A program made the translations under genes and the position numbers. From IMG/VR virus record IMGVR_UViG_3300025896_000099, positions 1 through 33,759 of that record: a stretch of DNA of 33,759 nt. One strand, written 5' to 3'. Below the pieces are notes generated by a model, which searched no databases, was not told where the DNA came from, and saw only the letters and a program-made list of their open reading frames with translations. This stretch comes from a virus. Shown here piece by piece: positions 118 to 33,702 of this stretch (its first letter is position 1; the number at the start of each line of letters is the position of its first letter).

Positions 118-146
118 TTGGTGGGGCTTGGTGGCGGTGATATAAT
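118..146 (+). promoter_or_regulatory. Promoter of the glycosyltransferase operon
   Basis: A perfect TATAAT lies at 141-146, preceded by TGA, which makes an extended -10. A partial -35 (TTGGTG, 118-123) sits exactly 17 bases upstream. Transcription would start near 153, giving a leader of about 25 bases before the GTG at 179. The rest of 1-163 is non-coding: a GAGGT/ACCTC hairpin at 15-30, a pyrimidine tract at 26-49, and an A/T-rich stretch. Confidence 0.65.
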
Positions 147-178
147 CATAAGTAATAAAAGAATTGGAGTATAAAAAG

Positions 179-1519
179 GTGATTGATTTAAGCATACTAG
201 TCTGCAGTGTTCACTCAAGATACAAAACATTTTTACCTAAGATACAAGAGCAGTTGTATGACCAACTTGCAGCGCTCTCAGAGGATGACCAGCAGCGCGT
301 AGAAATAATAGTGCTGACTGATAACAAACAGATGATGCTAGGTCACAAGCGCAATACAATGATTGATATTGCCCAAGGTAACTACATAGTCTTTGTAGAT
401 GATGATGACCGCATTGCTGATGACTACATAAGCACACTGCTCAATGCCACTGCCAAGGGTACTGATGCCATAGTATTTACAGCTATGGTGAGCCTCAATG
501 GTGAGCCAGCCAAGCCATGTTACTACTCTAAGGTGCATAGGCGTGACTACAATAAGCCTGATGCATACTACCGAATACCTAACCATATCTGCTGTGTTAA
601 GCGCTCAGTGAGCCTTAAAAGCAGCTTTCCTAACATCCTATACGGTGAGGATGCTGGCTATGGTAAGCTCTTGCTGCCACATCTAAAGACTGAGCATGTT
701 ATTGATAAGGTGCTTTACTACTATGACTACAACATTGACACCACAGAAACCCAAGGCTGGCGCAATAACAGCACCAAACAGCGACCCGGCAAGGCTATTG
801 TAGATGTGGTGATACTCTCTAAGGCTAGCAAATATAGAGATAGCCTAATGACTCAAAAAGCCATTGATAGCTGTATAAAGGGCGCTAATGGCTTGCCTAT
901 CAACATCATTGTCATGGAGGGTGGTGTTGGTCAGTACCATAACGCTGTTACCATTCCAAAGCGCGGCAAATTCAACTATAACCAATATGCTAATGAGGGT
1001 GCTGCGCTAGGTAAGGCTGATTGGATTATGATAGCCAACAATGACCTAGAATTTACTGATGGGTGGCTACATAACCTGCTCTCTGCTGACAATCCAGTAG
1101 TTAGCCCACATGAGCCAACTGATATGCGACAAAAGGGCATTATTGATAACCAGCTAGGCTTTGAATGCGGTAGGCACTTTAGTGGATGGTGCTTTATGGT
1201 GAGCCGCGAGTTATGGCTTAAGATTGGTAAGTTTGATGAGGATGTAGATTTTTGGTGCAGTGATGATGTTGTTATAGAGCAGGTCAGAGCAGCCGGTGTG
1301 ACACCAATGCTGGTAAAAGAGTCCATAGTGCGACATGCAGGCTCTGTGACCCTTAAACAGCAGCCAGAGGAAACAGCCAATGATTTAAAGTGGCGCAATG
1401 TGTTTATTTACAATACCAAGTACACTAAAAATAAGTTTGCGGACCATCCAAGTTACATTGCTTGGCTGCGCGACAATAAGGCATTAATAGAGGAGTTACA
1501 AAATGGGCTTACTAAATGA
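179..1519 (+). CDS. Two-domain family-2-type glycosyltransferase
   Basis: Probably transfers sugars from nucleotide-sugar donors. The 446-residue product has two GT-A-like halves. In the first, a beta strand (SILVCSVHSR) leads to an acidic metal/nucleotide site, VFVDDDDR at 71-78, with an ED pair at 157-158 in the catalytic-base position. The second half, from about residue 207, repeats the plan: VVILSKAS, ANNDLEF around 286-292 and CSDDVV around 360-365. I chose GTG 179 because TTGGAG at 164-169 reads as its ribosome site; TTG 164 would put that site inside the gene. It is the first gene of a four-gene operon and overlaps the methyltransferase gene by 17 bases. The acceptor is unknown; virion protein or host glycan are both possible. 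Confidence 0.85.
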   Translation: MIDLSILVCSVHSRYKTFLPKIQEQLYDQLAALSEDDQQRVEIIVLTDNKQMMLGHKRNTMIDIAQGNYIVFVDDDDRIADDYISTLLNATAKGTDAIVFTAMVSLNGEPAKPCYYSKVHRRDYNKPDAYYRIPNHICCVKRSVSLKSSFPNILYGEDAGYGKLLLPHLKTEHVIDKVLYYYDYNIDTTETQGWRNNSTKQRPGKAIVDVVILSKASKYRDSLMTQKAIDSCIKGANGLPINIIVMEGGVGQYHNAVTIPKRGKFNYNQYANEGAALGKADWIMIANNDLEFTDGWLHNLLSADNPVVSPHEPTDMRQKGIIDNQLGFECGRHFSGWCFMVSRELWLKIGKFDEDVDFWCSDDVVIEQVRAAGVTPMLVKESIVRHAGSVTLKQQPEETANDLKWRNVFIYNTKYTKNKFADHPSYIAWLRDNKALIEELQNGLTK

Positions 1520-2120
1520 TATTGGGCTAAAGTACGATGCTGATAAGAGCAGCCGTTTGCATCATTACCTAGATTTTTACCAAAAGCATCTGCCGGACCA
1601 GTCATTTAGCGGCAGGCTGCTAGAGATTGGTGTTATGGATGGTCTGAGCATGAAAATGTGGCGCGAGTATTACCCTAATGCTGAGATTGTGGGCATTGAC
1701 ATTAAAGAGGATATGGCTAGCTATATGCATAACTCTGATTGGCAAGTGCCTGAAAGCGTTAAGCTCATTACCTGTGATGCAACTGACCCTAAGCAAGTAA
1801 AGGCTCTAGGCAAGTTTGACATTATCCTTGATGATGGTAGCCACTATTGGAGTCACCAGCAAAAGAGTTTTGAACTACTTTATTACTCACAGCTCAATAA
1901 AGGCGGCATCTACATAATTGAGGATTTATGGACCAGTGAGATAGACTTTTACGCTGATGCCAAAATTAATACACTAGAGTATTTAAACCAGCTCAAGAAA
2001 AAAGGCTTTAAAATGACATTCTTTAAACACAAACATAATGGACCGGGCATATCGGTTGCATTCCCTGATTACAAAGATTTGGATAGCCAAACTGTAGTTA
2101 TAAAGGCAGGGCAGAAATGA
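1503..2120 (+). CDS. Class I SAM-dependent O-methyltransferase, macrocin/CmcI-like
   Basis: Likely methylates a sugar hydroxyl, going by its family and neighbours. The N-terminus (YDADKSSRLHHY, 11-22) resembles the DKS-H-Y signature of demethylmacrocin-type sugar O-methyltransferases. Motif I is EIGVMDGLS (41-49), the acidic loop is GIDI (64-67), and a metal-binding-like ILDDGSH lies at 108-114, followed by IIEDLW (139-143). These residues suit a Mg-dependent enzyme of the MycE/TylE/CmcI group. Length (205 residues) is slightly short for the family. A GAGGAG ribosome site lies inside the end of the glycosyltransferase gene. The stop overlaps the next start as ATGA, so translation is coupled. 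Substrate is inferred, not seen. Confidence 0.82.
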   Translation: MGLLNDIGLKYDADKSSRLHHYLDFYQKHLPDQSFSGRLLEIGVMDGLSMKMWREYYPNAEIVGIDIKEDMASYMHNSDWQVPESVKLITCDATDPKQVKALGKFDIILDDGSHYWSHQQKSFELLYYSQLNKGGIYIIEDLWTSEIDFYADAKINTLEYLNQLKKKGFKMTFFKHKHNGPGISVAFPDYKDLDSQTVVIKAGQK

Positions 2121-2860
2121 TACTTATAGCCGGTGGCAAAGGCTTTATTGGTAGTCATGTTGCTAAGGTATTTGATGGGCTAGATGCCGGACTTTACGAC
2201 ATTGTAGACCTTAAGGATGGGCAAGACATTTGCAACCTTAAAGACACCAGCAAATATGATGTGATTGTGCTGCTTGCAGCCAACCTAGGGCATGATATGG
2301 ATATGTTCCAAGACAACCTAGCAATATACCGCTGGGCTGCCCGGCAATCTGCACACATTATTTATACAAGCTCTGCAGCGGTGTATGGTGACAACAATGC
2401 AGCTCATACAGAGAATGAGGCAACACCAGCACCTACTTTATACGGCAGGTCTAAGCTGATTGGTGAGCAAATCATTAGCCAAGCCTGCCAGCGCCGCACT
2501 ATTTTACGACTCGCTAATGTTTACGGTAATGGTGATGGTAATGGCGCAATAGACATATTTAAGCGTGGTGGTAATAAGATTTATGGCAATGGTGAGGATG
2601 TGCGCGATTATGTACATGTTTCTGTTGTGGCTGAGGCTATCAAGCGCATTGCTCTAAATCCAAGTGCCTACAATAAAGAAATATTTAATATATCTAGCTT
2701 TGTGCCAGTTACTACTAATGAGGCATACATGAAATACGCTAAAGCCTATCTGACTGAGGGCTTGCCGGCTGAATACCTGCCAGCGCGCGGTTTTGATGTT
2801 AGCTACTCACTGCTTTGGAATGCCAAGGCTAAAGAGGCTGGGCTGATAGATGCAAATTAG
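2117..2860 (+). CDS. NAD-dependent epimerase/dehydratase (extended SDR)
   Basis: A nucleotide-sugar-modifying enzyme. The Rossmann motif GGKGFIG (6-12) fits GxxGxxG. The catalytic Ser/Tyr/Lys set is present: TSSAAVYG (84-91) and YGRSK with Y109 and K113. RLANVYG (131-137) and RDYVHV (163-168) are typical of UDP/dTDP-sugar 4-epimerases and dehydratases. At 247 residues it is shorter than the usual 300-330, so the C-terminal substrate domain is trimmed. It overlaps the methyltransferase by 4 bases and the next gene by 11. Within this operon it probably makes the donor sugar that the two transferases use. Epimerase, dehydratase and reductase cannot be told apart by eye. Confidence 0.85.
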   Translation: MILIAGGKGFIGSHVAKVFDGLDAGLYDIVDLKDGQDICNLKDTSKYDVIVLLAANLGHDMDMFQDNLAIYRWAARQSAHIIYTSSAAVYGDNNAAHTENEATPAPTLYGRSKLIGEQIISQACQRRTILRLANVYGNGDGNGAIDIFKRGGNKIYGNGEDVRDYVHVSVVAEAIKRIALNPSAYNKEIFNISSFVPVTTNEAYMKYAKAYLTEGLPAEYLPARGFDVSYSLLWNAKAKEAGLIDAN

Positions 2861-3500
2861 TGTTACCGTCATGGCTGTGCCAGCGCGTAAGCTGCAGGCT
2901 GAGTATCTAGCGGCTATATTGCGGTATTACCCATTTAGCGATGTTTCAGTTACCTATGATGAGGTTGCAGCCGGTACGCATGAGTCAGAATGGCTTAATG
3001 GTAAAAGCTCGCTACTGGCTGGTGTTGGTAAAGGTGATTGGCATGTAGTTATTCAGGATGATGCCATACTGACACCTAATTTGTATGAAAACATTGAGGG
3101 CGCTATAAACAATGTGCCTACTAAATCAATCATATCGCTCTACACTGGCAAAGCGCGCCCATTCCCTGAAAGGGTCAAAGAGGCGGTCAATAAAGTGGTA
3201 GATGAGACCTTTTTGCAGTACATCCTGCTTATGTGGGGTGTGGGCATCGTAATACCTACTAGCCACATTGAGCCATTGCTTGATTTTGTTGCGGACCGCA
3301 CAGAGCCTTATGACACTCGCATTGGTATCTTTTACCAGCGCAACCGCTTGCCTGTTTATTACACTATGCCAAGCCTTGTAGACCATGATGATGACTTAGG
3401 CACTGCAATACCCGGACATGGCACAAAGCCCGGTGCTAGAGTCGCACATAGGCTTGCTACAGGACCAGTCAAATGGCACAACAAAGTAATCACCATCTAA
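2850..3500 (+). CDS. Phage-type glycosyltransferase (GT-A, QDD motif)
   Basis: A second, single-domain glycosyltransferase of 216 residues. GDWHVVIQDDAILTPN (62-77) carries the QDD metal/nucleotide motif, placed as in short glycosyltransferases found in actinobacteriophages. A second acidic cluster, LVDHDDDLG (176-184), may be the catalytic or acceptor side. No signal peptide or membrane segment is seen, so it acts in the cytoplasm. It is the last gene of the operon; its start overlaps the epimerase end and uses GAGG at 2833-2836. The acceptor could be a structural protein or a sugar already added by the first transferase. Confidence 0.72.
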   Translation: MQISVTVMAVPARKLQAEYLAAILRYYPFSDVSVTYDEVAAGTHESEWLNGKSSLLAGVGKGDWHVVIQDDAILTPNLYENIEGAINNVPTKSIISLYTGKARPFPERVKEAVNKVVDETFLQYILLMWGVGIVIPTSHIEPLLDFVADRTEPYDTRIGIFYQRNRLPVYYTMPSLVDHDDDLGTAIPGHGTKPGARVAHRLATGPVKWHNKVITI

Positions 3501-5143: not shown

Positions 5144-5285
5144 ATCCGCACTCCTTTTTACCGTTGCTCATTGTACGGTGGTGGCAGTTATAGCCGGCTT
5201 GCTCTTTAGGGCAAGGCTGCCAGCTATCTAGCCAGTCTTGGAATGCCAGCCGTTTAAGCTCAATCCATGCAATTAATTTATTCAC
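5136..5285 (-). CDS. Small hypothetical protein (49 aa), start uncertain
   Basis: The frame is open to 5366, but that would overlap the next gene by about 90 bases. GTG 5285 gives MNKLIAWIELKRLAFQDWLD and is preceded by GAGG at a good distance, overlapping the upstream TAA. ATG 5306 or 5312 are alternatives. The C-terminus holds CPKEQAGYNCHH and a further cysteine, a possible zinc site. No function can be assigned. Confidence 0.5.
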   Translation of the reverse strand: MNKLIAWIELKRLAFQDWLDSWQPCPKEQAGYNCHHRTMSNGKKECGYE

Positions 5286-5559
5286 CACATGCCTCACTTT
5301 CATGCTCATGCTTACAGGGCTTATAAATATTGCTTTTCCATAGAGCCTTTTTAGATATTCGCTCAATCTTGGTAATGATGCCTTTTTTAGATGCTCGCTT
5401 AAATGCGCCGCCTAGTGGGGTGTAATCATCTAAGCCATAGCCAGCGGACTCAAGAAACATAATTAGAATATCGGCTATTATGTATTGATTGTCTCGCGCA
5501 AATGCCTCTAGCAATCGGTCTGCTGCATCTGCCCATGCTTGGGTTTTTCCATCAATCAT
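5278..5559 (-). CDS. Hypothetical actinophage-like early protein
   Basis: The 93-residue product has DRLLEAFARDNQYIIADIL, then LGGAFKRASKKGIITKI. This resembles a small protein family in actinobacteriophage early regions, where WGAAFRSAARAGLI is typical; the function is not known to me. An AAGGAGG ribosome site precedes ATG 5559, and the start overlaps the upstream stop by 8 bases. The C-terminus is rich in His, Cys and Glu (CKHEHESEACGE), perhaps metal-binding. Confidence 0.7.
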   Translation of the reverse strand: MIDGKTQAWADAADRLLEAFARDNQYIIADILIMFLESAGYGLDDYTPLGGAFKRASKKGIITKIERISKKALWKSNIYKPCKHEHESEACGE

Positions 5560-5740
5560 GTAAACCCTCCTTATGACCTTTATTTAATGCTGCTCTGAGC
5601 TTTTGCCTAGCCCGGCTGTCTATCTTAGGCTGTATTTCTTTTTCTGGCACAACTAACACCTGCACAAATGCTTTTGCATCACAGCCAGCCTTTGGGCATT
5701 TCATGGTGATGTGCTTAACGCCGGGCTTTTCATTGGGCAT
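5552..5740 (-). CDS. Small hypothetical protein (62 aa)
   Basis: ATG 5740 is chosen because GAGGAG lies 7 bases upstream; ATG 5770 and 5746 fit the ribosome site badly. The product has HITMKCPKAGCDAKAFVQV near the start, with one Cys pair that could be half a zinc ribbon, and a basic C-terminus (RARQKLRAALNKGHKEG). Neighbours are early-operon genes overlapping by about 10 bases on each side. Function unknown. Confidence 0.65.
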   Translation of the reverse strand: MPNEKPGVKHITMKCPKAGCDAKAFVQVLVVPEKEIQPKIDSRARQKLRAALNKGHKEGLHD

Positions 5741-6092
5741 TTGCATACTCCTCAAGTTTTGCCAGAGCATCTACTGACCTTTGTTTTTGCTCATCAGTCA
5801 TGTGCTTTAAGTGGTAATTATCCCCATCAGTGGTACATTTCTCACAGTCTTTGCGCCAAAATCTACCAAGGGCTATGTCTGGACTAATCTCATCCCACAA
5901 CTTGCGCTCTTTTTTGGCTAACTTTTTAAGCTCTGGTGTTGCTTTGACCGTATGACCAGTACCTAATGCGCCGCCAGAATGACCGCCGGACATACAATAA
6001 TATTCAGCGTATGGAAATTTGAAAGTCCATATAAGCGGTGTTTCGTGATTATTGCAAACTATTATCTCTGCTGGTTTTGTTTGCTCAGGCAT
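5730..6092 (-). CDS. Hypothetical zinc-binding-like phage protein
   Basis: Metal-ligand candidates are C13 and H16 (VCNNHE), C33 and H38 (YYCMSGGH), and C83 and C86 (KDCEKC). The pattern CNNH-WTF-AEYYC-GGALG resembles small zinc proteins of actinobacteriophages. Length is 120 residues, with a charged helical middle. The ATG overlaps the upstream TAA by one base (TAATG), so it is coupled to the secreted-protein gene. Role unknown. Confidence 0.68.
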   Translation of the reverse strand: MPEQTKPAEIIVCNNHETPLIWTFKFPYAEYYCMSGGHSGGALGTGHTVKATPELKKLAKKERKLWDEISPDIALGRFWRKDCEKCTTDGDNYHLKHMTDEQKQRSVDALAKLEEYANAQ

Positions 6093-6442
6093 TACTTACC
6101 TCCGCACTCAGACACCTTTGCTGGCGCTGTATTAAAGGCTGCATCATGCTCTGCAATCGCTTGCTGCTTTTCTGCTGTGCCTTGGTTTTGTGCTACAAAT
6201 TCTGCAATGCAGGCATCCTCACCGGCTTTGGTACTAAATGCCTTAATGCACTCTGGCACTGCTGGGTCTGAGTTATCACAGCTATCTACCGGGTTACTCC
6301 ATCGGTCTGGGTATTGGCAGTTGCTGTGGTCAAATGTCTGGGCTGCGCTGGCTGGCTGTGGGCGCGTTTGGACCGGCAAAGCGGTACTTATGCCAACTAT
6401 CAGGATTGATACGCCTAGAGCGCTTAATATAAGCCGTTTCAT
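6092..6442 (-). CDS. Secreted or surface Cys-containing small protein
   Basis: A classic Sec signal peptide is visible: MKR, a hydrophobic core (LILSALGVSILIVGIS), and an ASA-A cleavage site near residue 33. The mature part (about 83 residues) has five cysteines, in NCQYPDRWSNPVDSCDNSDP, EC, DAC and SEC, so disulphides are likely. An exported early phage protein could block superinfection or modify the envelope, but no known domain is recognised. The ATG overlaps the stop of a 29-residue membrane peptide gene. Confidence 0.68.
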   Translation of the reverse strand: MKRLILSALGVSILIVGISTALPVQTRPQPASAAQTFDHSNCQYPDRWSNPVDSCDNSDPAVPECIKAFSTKAGEDACIAEFVAQNQGTAEKQQAIAEHDAAFNTAPAKVSECGGK

Positions 6443-13619: not shown

Positions 13620-14039
13620 ATGGACCGTACACCAAAAAAGCCATGCAAGCATTGCGGCTTGATGGGTCACTTTGCATATGCTTGCTACCAAAACCCTAAG
13701 CGCGCACTAAAACAGCTCAAGCGCACTGAGCTAAAACGCTCTACCAAACCAATCAATAAAGTAGGTAAACAAACTAAGCAATGGCTGGTAACTCGCGCCT
13801 CATGGATTAGGCATAACCCACCGCCTATTGAGGGCAAATATTGGATGTGCTACCTGCGTATACATCCTTGGTGTCCGGGGCGCATTGATGTGGCACACCT
13901 TACCTTGGACCATGTTGTTAGCCGGTCACGCGACCCAAGCAAGCGGTTTAAAGCGGATAATCTCAAGCCTGCCTGCATATATTGCAATGGTGAAAAAGGC
14001 AGTAAATCACTTGACCAAGTTAAGCCTGATGCTGTATAA
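13620..14039 (+). CDS. HNH endonuclease with N-terminal zinc knuckle
   Basis: A CCHC zinc knuckle, C9-x2-C12-x4-H17-x4-C22, starts the 139-residue protein, an RNA/ssDNA-binding element. The HNH core is at 92-125: LTLDHV (D97, H98), DNLKPACIYC and NGEKGSKS. Further cysteines (C77, C85) suggest zinc. TTGGAGG (13602-13608) is the ribosome site of ATG 13620. It runs opposite to its neighbours beside the terminases, where an HNH often helps cut cos ends; a selfish homing enzyme is the alternative. Confidence 0.82.
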   Translation: MDRTPKKPCKHCGLMGHFAYACYQNPKRALKQLKRTELKRSTKPINKVGKQTKQWLVTRASWIRHNPPPIEGKYWMCYLRIHPWCPGRIDVAHLTLDHVVSRSRDPSKRFKADNLKPACIYCNGEKGSKSLDQVKPDAV

Positions 14040-14396: not shown

Positions 14397-15254
14397 TTAC
14401 TTAGTTTTCCCTACGCTGTAAAGCCCATCAGCCAGAGGCGTGGCAACAGCGCCGGTGGTTTTGAGCTTATCAACTGCGGTTTTAATACTTGCTGGGCTTA
14501 CATCTTGGATGCCTAGGTTTGCGCGGATTGCATCAATGGCTGGGTAGCAAAATGTATCACGCTCATTAACTAAGCCCTTAATTGTTTCGGCGCGGTTATT
14601 GTTATCAGTAATTACAGCGCGGATATAATTAACATATTCTTTATGAGGTGGCGCATTTCGCAATTCGTTATACACCTCATTGAAAGGTCTGCCAACATAA
14701 GTTTTTAGTTGCTCTTTAGTTGGACCAGTTCCAAATAGGTCAATAAAGAATGCTGTTACAAAGTTTTCGTCTGTCATCGGGATATTCCCTCCTTTTTCAT
14801 TATACGACTTTAATCTATAAATGTTAGGTACTGGACTGCGCCAGCTCTCATTTAAGCTGCCAGTGCGTGATGCATAAACATACGCCCCATCAACTAATTT
14901 GCGAGCAACACCGCCAACATTAACATTTTGCTCAAATGTTCTGTCATCACTAAGCACTACAGTAATATGCCCATAGATGCCAAACTTATACACAGCTATG
15001 TCACCGCGTTTGTGCTGGCTGTAAGGTACTTCAATGGCATGACCCTCAGCAACTAGCCTGTCACCTACATAACGCGCATCACCGCGCGCATTGAATGGAT
15101 TAGGCACACTGGACATTTCAGCCATAAACCATTTAACCAGAGTCACACATTGCCCGGTTAAATTACCGTCAGCCGGTGTTTGATTGTTGGCAGTAAAGAA
15201 TATGCCATTGCGCGTTGCTGCGTAGTCATCAGCGTTATTCGCTACTTGGCTCAT
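14397..15254 (-). CDS. Endolysin, CHAP domain with C-terminal binding region
   Basis: Cuts peptidoglycan at lysis. The CHAP domain (about 14-135) has Cys36 (GQCVTLVKW), His96 (YGHITVV) and Asn110 (FEQN). The C-terminal half (155-285), with FFIDLFGTGPTKEQLKTYVG, resembles a short DUF4214-like helical repeat, likely wall binding. No signal peptide, so it needs the holin. The start overlaps a 40-residue upstream gene by 20 bases and has AAGGTG just before it. Confidence 0.85.
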   Translation of the reverse strand: MSQVANNADDYAATRNGIFFTANNQTPADGNLTGQCVTLVKWFMAEMSSVPNPFNARGDARYVGDRLVAEGHAIEVPYSQHKRGDIAVYKFGIYGHITVVLSDDRTFEQNVNVGGVARKLVDGAYVYASRTGSLNESWRSPVPNIYRLKSYNEKGGNIPMTDENFVTAFFIDLFGTGPTKEQLKTYVGRPFNEVYNELRNAPPHKEYVNYIRAVITDNNNRAETIKGLVNERDTFCYPAIDAIRANLGIQDVSPASIKTAVDKLKTTGAVATPLADGLYSVGKTK

Positions 15255-15392: not shown

Positions 15393-15707
15393 CTACCAAG
15401 GGTTTGATAGTGGTACAGGGTTTGTAATCACCTGCCCTGCGTAATCCTCAGCCATCTTAGCGCCCTTTTTACGGTTGCACCTATGATGTGTAAGTTGTAG
15501 GTTTTCTAAGGCATACAGCGACCCACCACGCGACCTAGGCACAATATGGTCTACCTCTACTGCAAATGGGGTATTCTTTGCAGCCTCTAGGTCAATAGGT
15601 CTGTGACATATCGCACACACAGCATCTAGGCTGGCTATGGCGCGCTTGCGAGCTGCCGCCCATTCAGTACCATTTAACTTTGGCTGCGCTGGTATATAGC
15701 CATCCAT
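15393..15707 (-). CDS. HNH endonuclease
   Basis: A compact HNH nuclease of 104 residues: C31-x2-C34 (CAICHRP), then VDHIVPRSRGG (52-62; D53, H54), ENLQLTHHRCNRKKG (68-82). This is the arrangement of terminase-associated HNH proteins of HK97-like phages. Here it sits between fibre and lysis genes instead. There is no obvious ribosome site; it probably depends on the gene ending 4 bases upstream. Confidence 0.88.
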   Translation of the reverse strand: MDGYIPAQPKLNGTEWAAARKRAIASLDAVCAICHRPIDLEAAKNTPFAVEVDHIVPRSRGGSLYALENLQLTHHRCNRKKGAKMAEDYAGQVITNPVPLSNPW

Positions 15708-22575: not shown

Positions 22576-23136
22576 CTAGCTACTAAGAGCTGTTGCAATA
22601 TACTCTTTGTGAGTATCACCGTTTTCATCGGGATAAGCGACAAATACGGCAGGGTAGGCAATAGCCTCACCATCCACATAAGTGATTTCGCCACTGCGGT
22701 CTGCGATTTGTGCGTAAGGCACAACGATGCGCTTGATGCGCCCGCCGGTCATTACAAGCTCAAATACAACAGAAACACGCGGTAACATTTCATTGGTTTG
22801 GGTAATGGTTATTGAGCCGTTACCTTCCTCAACTACATTATCACTACCATAATAGACTTTAAGTGCCTCTGCGTTGGTCTCAATGAGATTGACAGTAAAC
22901 ATTTCCTTAAAGGTGGTTTGACCAGTTAAAACTAAGTCACCGCCCCAAGCGTTTATGTCCTCTACATCGGTCTCAACACCATTGACAAGCCCATCCTCAC
23001 TAACATAGCCCAAGCCCTTGAAAGCTGCATTGAGGGTTGCCCAAGCAGTCGTAGGTAGGGGTGTGCCAGCAGGTGCTACATACACAGCACCGGTGGATTT
23101 TGGCTTACCAAATGACACATTATCGGCATCATTCAT
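22576..23136 (-). CDS. Major tail (tube) protein
   Basis: 186 residues from ATG 23136 (AGGA upstream); a longer frame to 23184 lacks a good start. The pattern FGKPKSTGAVYVAPAGTPLP then LGYVSEDGLVNGVETDVEDI and the C-terminal YAQIADRSGEITYVDGEAIA is typical of siphophage tube proteins of Gram-positive phages. It follows the connector genes and has its own promoter and terminator. Confidence 0.9.
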   Translation of the reverse strand: MNDADNVSFGKPKSTGAVYVAPAGTPLPTTAWATLNAAFKGLGYVSEDGLVNGVETDVEDINAWGGDLVLTGQTTFKEMFTVNLIETNAEALKVYYGSDNVVEEGNGSITITQTNEMLPRVSVVFELVMTGGRIKRIVVPYAQIADRSGEITYVDGEAIAYPAVFVAYPDENGDTHKEYIATALSS

Positions 23137-23204
23137 GGTTAAGTTTCCTGTACAAGTTGGTTGGCACAACAGTGCGCTAGGCAAAGCTCTGCTTTATGCT
23201 TGTG

Positions 23205-24116: not shown

Positions 24117-24560
24117 CTAGCTGCTGTAGATATTTCCGTACAAATTCTGCGATGTACTTAAGCCGCCAAGAGTCTGAGTGCCATACAAGCCAACTGATGA
24201 TAGCTCAGATGTCTTAAACCATAAGTCACCACTAGGGTTACTATATTTAAAGTTTTCGCTGTATGGACCGGCGGTTTGTCCGTAAGTCTCTACCGGCTGA
24301 CCATCAACAGGTGATTGTAGTGCGCGCTTTACAGACTCCATAACCACCCATTGGACCGTCATAAAGTAAGCAGGGTCACTATTTACCTTTGCATCAACAT
24401 CAAGCCCTACATCCTGCCCTATGAGGCGTAAGCGGTTACTAGCCAGCTTAAGTAGGTACTCTGCGCGGTTGGTGCTGTCTGGTGCTTTCCAAAACAGCGT
24501 TAAATCATCCACATTTGCATATGTGTTAGGTGCTACAACTGGTACTACAACGCCTGCCAT
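24117..24560 (-). CDS. Head-tail connector protein
   Basis: 147 residues. YANVDDLTLFWKAPDSTNRA then LLKLASNRLRLIGQDVG, followed by QWVVMESVKRALQSPVDGQP and a Gly/Tyr/Ser-rich end, matches the Gp15/Gp19-like connectors that sit on the portal. The start overlaps the portal stop by 1 base (TAATG). Confidence 0.85.
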   Translation of the reverse strand: MAGVVVPVVAPNTYANVDDLTLFWKAPDSTNRAEYLLKLASNRLRLIGQDVGLDVDAKVNSDPAYFMTVQWVVMESVKRALQSPVDGQPVETYGQTAGPYSENFKYSNPSGDLWFKTSELSSVGLYGTQTLGGLSTSQNLYGNIYSS

Positions 24561-28348: not shown

Positions 28349-29053
28349 TTATAATACCGTAGCCAAGGCAATTACTCTAGCATAATCAACAACACCATCC
28401 GCGCCATCAGTGCCATCCACACCATCAGTACCGTCTGCACCTGCAGCGCCGGGCGCGCCTTGTATACCTTGGATGCCCTGAATACCTTGCGCGCCAGTAT
28501 TACCAGTAGCGCCCTGTGGACCAGTTGCGCCGGTGTCACCTTTTATATCTGTTAGCAATACTAAGTTTGTCCATGAAACATCACCAACATAACGCCACTG
28601 TATATGGGTTGCTGATTTCTGTAATTCAACCTCGCGCCCATCATCGCCGTCAGCTCCATCTGTGCCATTCGTACCATTTGTGCCGTTAGTGCCTGCAGCA
28701 CCAGTTGCGCCAGTAGCGCCGGTGTTTCCAGTGTCACCTTTTACGCCCTGTGGACCTTGCGGACCAGTTGCGCCAGTATTGCCAGCCGGACCTTGCGAGC
28801 CGGTAGCGCCCTGCGCTCCTGTAGCACCTGTTGGACCGGCAGGACCAGTTTCACCCTGTAACTCAGCAATCGCAACTAGGTCATACCATACCGGCTCACC
28901 AGCATAGCGCCAGCGGACATTTGTGCCATCAGACTCAAGCTCAACCTCGCGCCCTGCAGAGCCAGTTTTACCTACACTGACTTGTATGACATTCTGGCGT
29001 AATACCGTTTTGATTGGTTGCTTTACGGCTATTTTAACGGTAATGCCCTGCAT
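28349..29053 (-). CDS. Collagen-like fibre with a duplicated globular module
   Basis: 234 residues. Two Gly-x-x collagen stretches, at 67-137 and 172-220, are rich in Thr/Ala/Asn (GATGAQGATGSQGPAGNTG), and each is preceded by the same short module, GREVEL..WRY..W..LV, at 34-64 and 139-170. This is an internal duplication. Collagen-like stalks trimerise in phage fibres. Many Thr and Asn make it a candidate acceptor for the phage glycosyltransferases. No evidence for attachment is in the sequence. Confidence 0.82.
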   Translation of the reverse strand: MQGITVKIAVKQPIKTVLRQNVIQVSVGKTGSAGREVELESDGTNVRWRYAGEPVWYDLVAIAELQGETGPAGPTGATGAQGATGSQGPAGNTGATGPQGPQGVKGDTGNTGATGATGAAGTNGTNGTNGTDGADGDDGREVELQKSATHIQWRYVGDVSWTNLVLLTDIKGDTGATGPQGATGNTGAQGIQGIQGIQGAPGAAGADGTDGVDGTDGADGVVDYARVIALATVL

Positions 29054-31036: not shown

Positions 31037-31951
31037 CTAAGAGCTTGCGCCGTTTTCGCTGATGATGCTAAACGCAGCACCGTCAAAGATTGCAAAGCCA
31101 AACACTGCCTCAGCGCGGATTGCAATTTCGTTGGTTCGCTTTAGGTCACCTGCACCATCTGGGTCACCAAATTCTATGGTTTCCAGTGGTACTTCGCGAG
31201 CGACACCCCACTTAAAGGCGCGCCAGTCACCCAAGATAGCCTGAATGCTAACCTCAGATGCCTCTAGTTCCTGCCGACCACTTACTGTATCGCTAGATGC
31301 AGCAGTAAGACCTTGGAAACTTGAGAAACCAAACCCTAAGCCAAGCTCTGGGTATAGAGGGCGGTTTTCACCATCCTTTTTACGAGCGAGCTGACCGGCA
31401 AATACTGGGTCAAGCGCAATACCAGTTGCGATGTAACCAGCCTCTTGCAAATCGCTAGCAGCGGTTTCAAGGTCAGCTTGTACATCACCAGTTGCTACTA
31501 CTCGCGCAACACCGTTGCCGGCTTTGTCAAAGTAGTTAGTAACGCTGGATGAGATTACACCAGTAAGAGGGTTAATGCCATGAATGGCAACCAAGTCTAA
31601 TGCGCGGCTCAAGGCTGTTGCAACATTAGCTACCAAAGCATCAACAATGCCTGCTTGGTAGTCCTCATCTTCCCACATAACTTCATTGCTAAAGCGGTAG
31701 GTAATTTGGACCTTGTAAGTTTTGACAGTAGCCTTGCTAGGCGTACCATCCATTGAGCTTTTCTGTGCAGACTCACCCACCAGCTCTGCTTTTGGTGTAC
31801 CTGTAAAGGTAAAGTGGTCTGTGCTGCCTACTTTAACATCTGGCAAAGATGGTGCTAGTGATGCCAAGACACCACCGCGAATGTTTTTGCTCCAAGACTC
31901 ACCAGTGTGATTGGCAAGGTTTAGGGCAGAAGTTCTAAGGGGATTTCCCAT
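31037..31951 (-). CDS. Major capsid protein (HK97 fold)
   Basis: 304 residues. Typical HK97-fold pieces: N-arm, FTGTPKAELVGESAQKSS (about 48-65, E-loop region), KVQITYRFSNEVMWEDEDY (spine), a P domain with LVANVATALSRALDLVAIHG, and the A domain (DPVFAGQLARKKDGENRPLY). The end has EIAIRAEAVFGFAI typical of the family. AAGGAG lies 10 bases before ATG 31951. Scaffold is directly upstream, the standard order. Confidence 0.95.
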   Translation of the reverse strand: MGNPLRTSALNLANHTGESWSKNIRGGVLASLAPSLPDVKVGSTDHFTFTGTPKAELVGESAQKSSMDGTPSKATVKTYKVQITYRFSNEVMWEDEDYQAGIVDALVANVATALSRALDLVAIHGINPLTGVISSSVTNYFDKAGNGVARVVATGDVQADLETAASDLQEAGYIATGIALDPVFAGQLARKKDGENRPLYPELGLGFGFSSFQGLTAASSDTVSGRQELEASEVSIQAILGDWRAFKWGVAREVPLETIEFGDPDGAGDLKRTNEIAIRAEAVFGFAIFDGAAFSIISENGASS

Positions 31952-32936: not shown

Positions 32937-33264
32937 TTACACTTTCTGCTCTAAAGTACCTATTCCAGCGAGTAGGCGTATTGCCATCCATGAACTTAAC
33001 GGCAGAGCTGTCTAATCGGAATACTTTGCCATCATAGGTAAACTCGCTATTGCCAACATCAGTGCTATCGGTCTTTGGCATGTGTACGCGCACTTGGTCT
33101 TTGGACTGTTCCATTGCTTGCTGCTCACGCGCGGTAGTAGGCTCAGTAATTGGCGCAACTAAGCAATCATCAACTGTGATTTCTTGGGTGGTGTAAGTAG
33201 GGTTGTTTAAATCATCAACCGCACCGGCAACCTTTTGAGTAAATACTATTTCCATGCCTACCAT
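32923..33264 (-). CDS. Head-tail stopper-like protein
   Basis: 113 residues from ATG 33264. EIVFTQKVAGAVDDLNNPTY, then VDDCLVAPITEPTT and QVRVHMPKTDSTDVGNSEFT is the stopper pattern (a cvvaP box then a VyxP box, G-Y-V-G strand). It closes the portal channel. A TATAAT lies 7 bases before ATG 33264 (leaderless), so this starts the late block. ATG 33255 and 33270 are alternatives. Confidence 0.75.
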   Translation of the reverse strand: MVGMEIVFTQKVAGAVDDLNNPTYTTQEITVDDCLVAPITEPTTAREQQAMEQSKDQVRVHMPKTDSTDVGNSEFTYDGKVFRLDSSAVKFMDGNTPTRWNRYFRAESVNANG

Positions 33265-33271
33265 AACCATG

Positions 33272-33277
33272 ATTATA
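33272..33277 (-). promoter_or_regulatory. -10 promoter of the head genes (leaderless)
   Basis: TATAAT on the minus strand, preceded by TTG; 7 bases before ATG 33264. No -35. Confidence 0.6.
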
Positions 33278-33287
33278 CAACAACCTA

Positions 33288-33296
33288 TGGTAAAAT
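33288..33296 (+). promoter_or_regulatory. Extended -10 promoter of the rightward HNH gene (leaderless)
   Basis: TGG-TAAAAT (-10 at 33291-33296) ends 7 bases before ATG 33304. Divergent from the promoter at 33272; the two hexamers are 13 bases apart. Confidence 0.6.
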
Positions 33297-33303
33297 GCTT
33301 TTA

Positions 33304-33702
33304 ATGAATGAATTGGAGAAATGGTCTGACATTATTGGCTATGAGGGTCACTATCAAGTGAGCAATTTAGGTAATGTACGCTCATTAGACAGAGGCATGT
33401 ATGTTAGGCAAGACCGCTATAGCCAGCCGCGTTGGACAAACCGCAAGGGCAAATTACTAAACATGTACTTGGATGGCAAAGGTTACCGCATGGTTAGACC
33501 CTGCCTATTTGGTGTACCAAAAACTTTGATGGTGCATAGGCTAGTAGCACAAGCCTTTATTCCAAACCCTGAAAACAAGCCGGCGGTAAACCATATCAAC
33601 TCAGACTGCCTAGACAATAGGGCAGTAAATCTTGAGTGGTGTACCATTGCTGAAAACAACCGCCATGCCCTGCTAAATGGCAGGCGCAAACCTAAAAAAT
33701 AA
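33304..33702 (+). CDS. NUMOD4-HNH homing endonuclease-like protein
   Basis: 132 residues from ATG 33304; the frame is open from 33235 but the domain begins here. NUMOD4 (WSDIIGYEGHYQVSNLGNVR, 7-26) is followed by an HNH_3 core: HRLVAQAFIPNPENKPAVNH (about 78-97), INSDCLDNRAVNLEWCT, NNRHAL. Such free-standing genes spread as homing elements between phages. It is on the strand opposite the late block. Confidence 0.88.
   Translation: MNELEKWSDIIGYEGHYQVSNLGNVRSLDRGMYVRQDRYSQPRWTNRKGKLLNMYLDGKGYRMVRPCLFGVPKTLMVHRLVAQAFIPNPENKPAVNHINSDCLDNRAVNLEWCTIAENNRHALLNGRRKPKK

Follow-up and report, generated by a model that had tools for sequence, protein, structure and literature searches.

To our knowledge, virion glycosylation has been documented for only a few mycobacteriophages. 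One report describes Che8 gp110 and Corndog gp38 as essential to the glycosylation of the capsid (PMC12363180), and another places glycans at the C-termini of the capsid and tail-tube proteins of Che8 and Corndog virions (PMC12619734). A cluster O phage cassette was described as comprising an O-methyltransferase and three transferases (PMC11600133; PMC4351075). Here we analysed a stretch of viral DNA, IMG/VR record IMGVR_UViG_3300025896_000099 (positions 1 to 33,759; the whole 33,759 nucleotides are referred to as the window), in which four plus-strand genes at 179-3500 encode a two-domain glycosyltransferase (GT1), a sugar O-methyltransferase, an epimerase and a second glycosyltransferase (GT4). 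Judged from its sequence, this operon quite probably modifies the phage's own particles by placing a methylated sugar on the C-terminal hydroxyl of the major capsid protein (MCP) and the major tail, or tail-tube, protein (MTP). The genes and their control region are:

118..181, plus strand: promoter and ribosome-binding site, with TTGGTG (-35) at 118, the extended -10 element TGaTATAAT at 138-146 (TATAAT at 141-146), GGAG at 165-168 and the start codon GTG at 179
179..1519, plus strand: GT1, two-domain GT-A glycosyltransferase of 446 amino acids (Glycos_transf_2, 1e-12; phrog_8858, 6e-102)
1503..2120, plus strand: sugar O-methyltransferase of the TylE/MycE type, 205 amino acids (methyltransferase domain, 4e-9; phrog_21658, 8e-37)
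2117..2860, plus strand: nucleotide-sugar epimerase, a short GalE-like SDR protein, accessory (PF01370, Epimerase, 1e-22)
2850..3500, plus strand: GT4, GT25-like GT-A glycosyltransferase of 216 amino acids (phrog_854 'glucosyltransferase', 1e-35)

The cassette and its described relatives

The cassette of the window is of the Che8/Corndog kind in that GT4 is a homolog of Che8 gp110 (8.6e-15; 4e-83 by profile) and a further transferase, GT1, is encoded in the same operon. In addition, GT4 is homologous to gp36 of Firecracker, a phage of the Corndog genus (3.6e-14), and the N-terminal half of GT1 to Che8 gp108 (5e-44). Since gp110 was reported to be essential and the virions of Che8 and Corndog to be glycosylated, these homologies support a role of the operon in virion glycosylation. 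Genes 108-110 of Che8 (cluster F) share with the window the GT1 N-domain (gp108), a methyltransferase domain, GT4 (gp110) and Ser-ended capsid and tail-tube proteins, but gp108 is fused to a different methyltransferase, gp109 replaces the second domain of GT1, an epimerase is missing and the genome measures 59 kb. The Corndog/Firecracker cassette of cluster O (O-methyltransferase, two transferases and an N-acetylglucosaminyltransferase) likewise consists of four adjacent genes combining an O-methyltransferase with transferases, including gp36, and accompanies Ser-ended capsid and tail-tube proteins, whereas its methyltransferase is of the MycF type (3''-O-methyltransferase), it lacks an epimerase and it lies between the portal and protease genes. 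Among Gordonia phages, Ziko gp123 is 58% identical to GT1, and Forza and GodonK encode a full two-domain GT1 (53-57% identity) followed by GT4 and have Ser-ended capsid and tail proteins, but carry neither methyltransferase nor epimerase, keep the pair inside the structural gene block and have genomes of >110 kb.

Cassette composition was read from 80 viral contigs carrying GT1. A profile spanning every GT1 variant proved too diverse to scan the collection with. In many of these contigs GT1 has a GT4 homolog nearby and in some a methyltransferase, and the epimerase occurs only in the window's nearest relatives, L014 and L018, and in the near-identical L013. The core of the cassette is thus GT1 plus GT4, with methyltransferase and epimerase as optional members. 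A sequence-only reading of the window had proposed a coupled four-gene operon, and this was borne out: all four reading frames are present, adjacent genes overlap end to start by 4-17 bases, and the same four genes form an operon in L014 (GT1 74% identical) and L018 (GT1 92%), while L015 and L016 have a three-gene operon without the epimerase. Five diverged relatives (L014, L015, L016, L018 and L019; the -10 variant of L016 is TATACT) retain the arrangement TGnTATAAT, GGAG and an ATG or GTG start, although a simple promoter scan did not list the extended -10 site; defence-system models gave no match. We place the start of GT1 at GTG 179 rather than at TTG 164, because homologs begin M-IDLSIL and the relatives have ATG or GTG at this point. 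Hence, of the span 118-3500 previously given for the operon, the end stands, while position 118 marks the -35 region of the promoter (118-146). Both the small unknown genes (from 3647) and the virion genes lie in minus-strand blocks, against which the operon runs.

In other phages the homologs are found among virion genes. GT1 lies within the structural gene block in Forza and GodonK, and in Lucky2013 it immediately follows the capsid gene. In an Erwinia prophage GT1 and GT4 directly follow the tail-tube gene; related enzymes adjoin capsid or tail genes in prophages of other bacterial phyla, and relatives of the main enzyme occur in phages of other phyla as well. This bears on the possibility that the operon alters the surface glycan of the host during infection and so blocks re-infection or other phages, as had also been suggested for the window. 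Phage glycosyltransferases with such a role are known, according to PMC12619734, and genes for nucleotide-sugar synthesis would suit it. However, the closest homologs act on virions and lie inside capsid and tail gene blocks, and neither a membrane flippase nor a lipid-linked sugar transferase was found among the genes examined; Gtr-type serotype conversion would call for both beside the transferase, but the four operon proteins matched no family of this kind above cut-off. Lysogenic conversion is unlikely because no integrase was seen among the proteins examined. Nothing found supports alteration of the host surface, which we regard as very unlikely. Virion glycosylation is the best-supported function, given the homology to Che8 and the Corndog genus, the position beside capsid and tail genes in other phages and the match of C-terminal Ser/Thr residues described below.

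The enzymes and the predicted glycan

The structure model of GT1 (pLDDT 92.5) contains two GT-A domains, with the motifs FVDDDD near residue 72 and IANND near residue 285, so that homology and a confident model both confirm the earlier description of two catalytic-like halves in one protein. The closest solved folds are the two-domain heparosan synthase 2, the chondroitin synthase K4CP and polypeptide GalNAc-transferases, and the resemblance to protein O-GalNAc transferases, among others, was counted for virion glycosylation. That two-domain heparosan and chondroitin synthases are the best whole-model matches could instead indicate a two-site polymerase whose product is not a short glycan but a polysaccharide of repeating units, either free or on the virion. 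Yet the whole-length TM-scores are low (about 0.3), the match may merely reflect the presence of two GT-A domains in both, and the two halves are encoded by separate genes in Lucky2013 and others, with the second half missing from Che8, which makes a polymerase highly improbable. GT4 had no Pfam match, but its model (pLDDT 92.9) has a GT-A fold matching viral and GT25-type transferases, including COLGALT1 and the capsid glycosyltransferase of PBCV-1 (2p6w). The latter is likewise a viral GT-A enzyme for a capsid glycan, although the similarity is one of remote fold only and the virus is unrelated; PBCV-1 glycans are N-linked.

A profile of the methyltransferase relatives matched TylE, a demethylmacrocin O-methyltransferase (8ia9, 2.6e-33), and MycE (3ssm, 1.1e-32), and the window protein carries motifs of this family, the metal/catalytic LDDGSH at 109 and EDLWTS. 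TylE and MycE are 2-O-methyltransferases of sugars in macrolide pathways, the macrocin O-methyltransferase proper being TylF. The enzyme had been called macrocin-type, which was close in that a sugar O-methyltransferase is indicated, the type being that of TylE/MycE instead. Like these, it is predicted to act on a sugar hydroxyl, but TylE and MycE act on macrolide-bound deoxysugars, and the phage enzyme is shorter. Its profile did not match Firecracker gp33 or the C-terminal half of Che8 gp108, and profile-profile comparison gave a weak match (probability 55%). The MycF family of the Corndog genus and the MycE family of the window represent two solutions that probably methylate different hydroxyls. 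A sugar methyltransferase of the MycE type is, together with the linkage to virion genes, ill-suited to the glycosylation of hypermodified bases of phage DNA against restriction. Virus-encoded transferases can glycosylate DNA bases (Pyle 2024, as cited in PMC12619734), but among the proteins scanned no thymidylate-synthase-like protein, no base-hydroxylating or hydroxymethylating enzyme and no DNA methyltransferase was recognised, small unknown genes remaining, and we consider this role extremely improbable.

The epimerase has the cofactor motif GxxGxxG, the Ser and YxxxK, and its best solved relative is a UDP-glucose 4-epimerase (4zrm, 1.3e-11), in agreement with the nucleotide-sugar epimerase previously assigned to this position; its NCBIfam matches were far below any cut-off. 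In the pathway that we propose, the epimerase would convert a host nucleotide sugar into the required donor, and GT1 and GT4 would add sugars beginning at the hydroxyl amino acid with which MCP and MTP end. The terminal Ser may receive its first sugar from one GT1 domain, the other GT1 domain and GT4 may then extend the glycan, and the TylE/MycE-type enzyme would cap it by O-methylating one of its sugars. It is plausible that the operon is sufficient for making, attaching and methylating a sugar, except that the epimerase is dispensable in relatives and needs a nucleotide sugar from the host. The last Ser/Thr as attachment point, the order of the enzymes, the occurrence of the chemistry and its benefit, either shielding or changed surface properties, are what we infer from these comparisons.

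Capsid and tail-tube C-termini as predicted acceptors

The two predicted acceptors, each with a hydroxyl residue at its C-terminus, are:

31037..31951, minus strand: MCP, C-terminus NGASS (PF05065, 9e-15; phrog_10, 2e-29)
22576..23139, minus strand: MTP, C-terminus TALSS (Phage_TTP_17, 2e-14; phrog_117, 5e-50)

The acceptor idea was formed from the window together with Jabbawokkie (MCP/MTP ends DES/DES) and GodonK (GS/GS), and most other cases were read afterwards. The window and its sibs end GASS/ALSS and ASS/VSS, and among cassette phages the ends are TGS/DGS in Che8, VGS/GDS in Firecracker, VGS/SGS in Forza (its tail protein identified by positional likeness to that of GodonK), AGS/PAS in Ziko, TAS/ASS in Yvonnetastic and DGS/DAS in ThetaBob. 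Prophages of Erwinia (SGS/QGS) and Rhizobiales (AGS/EGS) follow the same pattern, and the capsid proteins of four further GT1 clusters end in Thr (ATT). Cassette-free phages with homologous capsids end ATV/TTP (PhorbesPhlower), AEN/SNN (PA6) and ANS/VTP (Kenna group). When the capsid proteins were clustered at 60% identity and the clusters counted, MCP and MTP were both Ser/Thr-ended in 11 of 12 cassette clusters vs none of six cassette-free ones (Fisher p 0.0004), and MCP alone in 19/21 vs 1/6 (p 0.0014). We infer that a C-terminal hydroxyl residue would be a defining feature of Che8/Corndog-kind cassettes.

Several points weigh against this interpretation. Contig G072 (DGS/DGS) was first scored as cassette-free, phrog_854 and PF00535 being an imperfect test of absence that missed its homologs of Che8 gp108/gp109, and its transfer to the cassette-positive set came when its C-termini were already known, which favours the hypothesis. 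The capsids of the cluster J relatives (Lucky2013, G076 and G014) end APTFA or VAPSF, and the capsid of the window's sib G003 ends PSA (PSA/ASS for the pair). Ser/Thr ends are not rare, occurring in 8 of the 50 window genes, one of them an SS-ending protein at 24117-24560. Moreover, the cassette-free controls amount to six clusters, most of them fragments or close lineages, and different searches supplied the two sets. L170, a 23-kb fragment without cassette (DGS/SGS), was kept in the negative set, and the Microlunatus locus L202 stood outside the count, its capsid gene lying beyond the locus. Because of the small sample and the differently collected sets, the test is supportive and not conclusive.

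The collagen-like fibre of the window (28349-29053) had been put forward as a candidate acceptor. It is Thr/Asn-rich and by family a tail protein, and COLGALT1, a collagen galactosyltransferase, resembles the GT4 fold, though as one of many GT-A matches. However, no collagen domain was found in G002, G003, G021 and G023, all of which keep the cassette, nor in Che8, Ziko, Yoshi, Forza and GodonK, and the collagen-like gene of G004 lies elsewhere, so that the fibre is a changeable part. It was rejected as a required acceptor on this presence and absence, and we consider it very unlikely to be the acceptor, MCP and MTP being the predicted ones.

Some further C-termini were recorded. The window protein at 24117-24560 (minus strand), a Gp19/Gp15-type head-tail connector protein, ends IYSS and is a third possible acceptor. 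In L115 (contig G032, 34 kb), where no known cassette homolog was found, the capsid protein ends SESSSAAAESSSAA and a tail-tube-like match ends GESSSAASAESSSA, a common Ser/Ala-rich tail. In cassette-free PA6 (L111, 4645-5592 and 7172-7813), the capsid and tail-tube proteins both have Pro/Asn-rich C-terminal tails (NPPAEN, NPPSNN). In L201, from a contig binned as Sphingobacterium (1763-2227 and 5227-6303), GT1 is 57% identical, the capsid terminates in PATT and, of two tail-tube-like proteins, one terminates in PITT.

Genome context and biological meaning

The left and right ends of the window lie side by side in relative G002, with about 450 divergent bases between them, and the window is therefore a near-complete genome of about 34 kb, in line with the small phage genome assumed at the outset; in G021, too, the sequence is broken within GT1, and the pieces of that gene lie at opposite ends of the contig. 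The virion proteins recognised were portal, capsid, tape measure, terminase and Dit. A nucleotide search of phages gave no close relative of the window; its capsid and terminase are closest to those of actinophages and some Firmicutes phages, its GC content is 45%, and an actinobacterial host is plausible. The terminase genes (10679-12990, minus strand) are located downstream of the tail genes, with the capsid gene at the opposite end of the virion block, an unusual order. Two separate CHAP-domain proteins are encoded, a lysin-like one with LysM (9663-10403, plus strand) and one among the tail genes (14397-15254, minus strand). Two identical copies of an 18-base direct repeat, TCTATATAGTATGTAAAA, at 9270-9287 and 9306-9323 (36 bases apart), lie upstream of the gene for the LysM-CHAP lysin and appear operator-like. 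The genome also holds three HNH endonuclease genes (33235-33702, plus; 15393-15707, minus; 13602-14039, plus), one with NUMOD4 of the homing type, and a HAD domain protein of the 'Swiss Army Knife' RNA repair type (7893-8384, minus strand).

In summary, the operon of the window is real and functionally coherent and, as far as its sequence tells, is a variant of C-terminal O-glycosylation of virions in which the termini of MCP and MTP are the predicted acceptors. With the C-terminal Ser/Thr pattern, the question of which proteins are modified becomes a prediction that names two residues, and the compact uncultured tailed phage would represent a differently built version of the system, equipped with an epimerase of its own and a sugar methyltransferase of another class. 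Of greatest interest are the acceptor rule and its occurrence outside actinophages. We give even chances to a widespread and mostly unrecognised virion glycosylation, in which phages of Actinomycetota, Pseudomonadota and perhaps Bacteroidota carry GT1/GT4 cassettes that act on both capsid and tail-tube proteins through a Ser/Thr at their free C-terminus. If true, these phages would share a minimal signal, the last residues of a protein would reveal it as an acceptor, and the glycan would cover head and tail alike.

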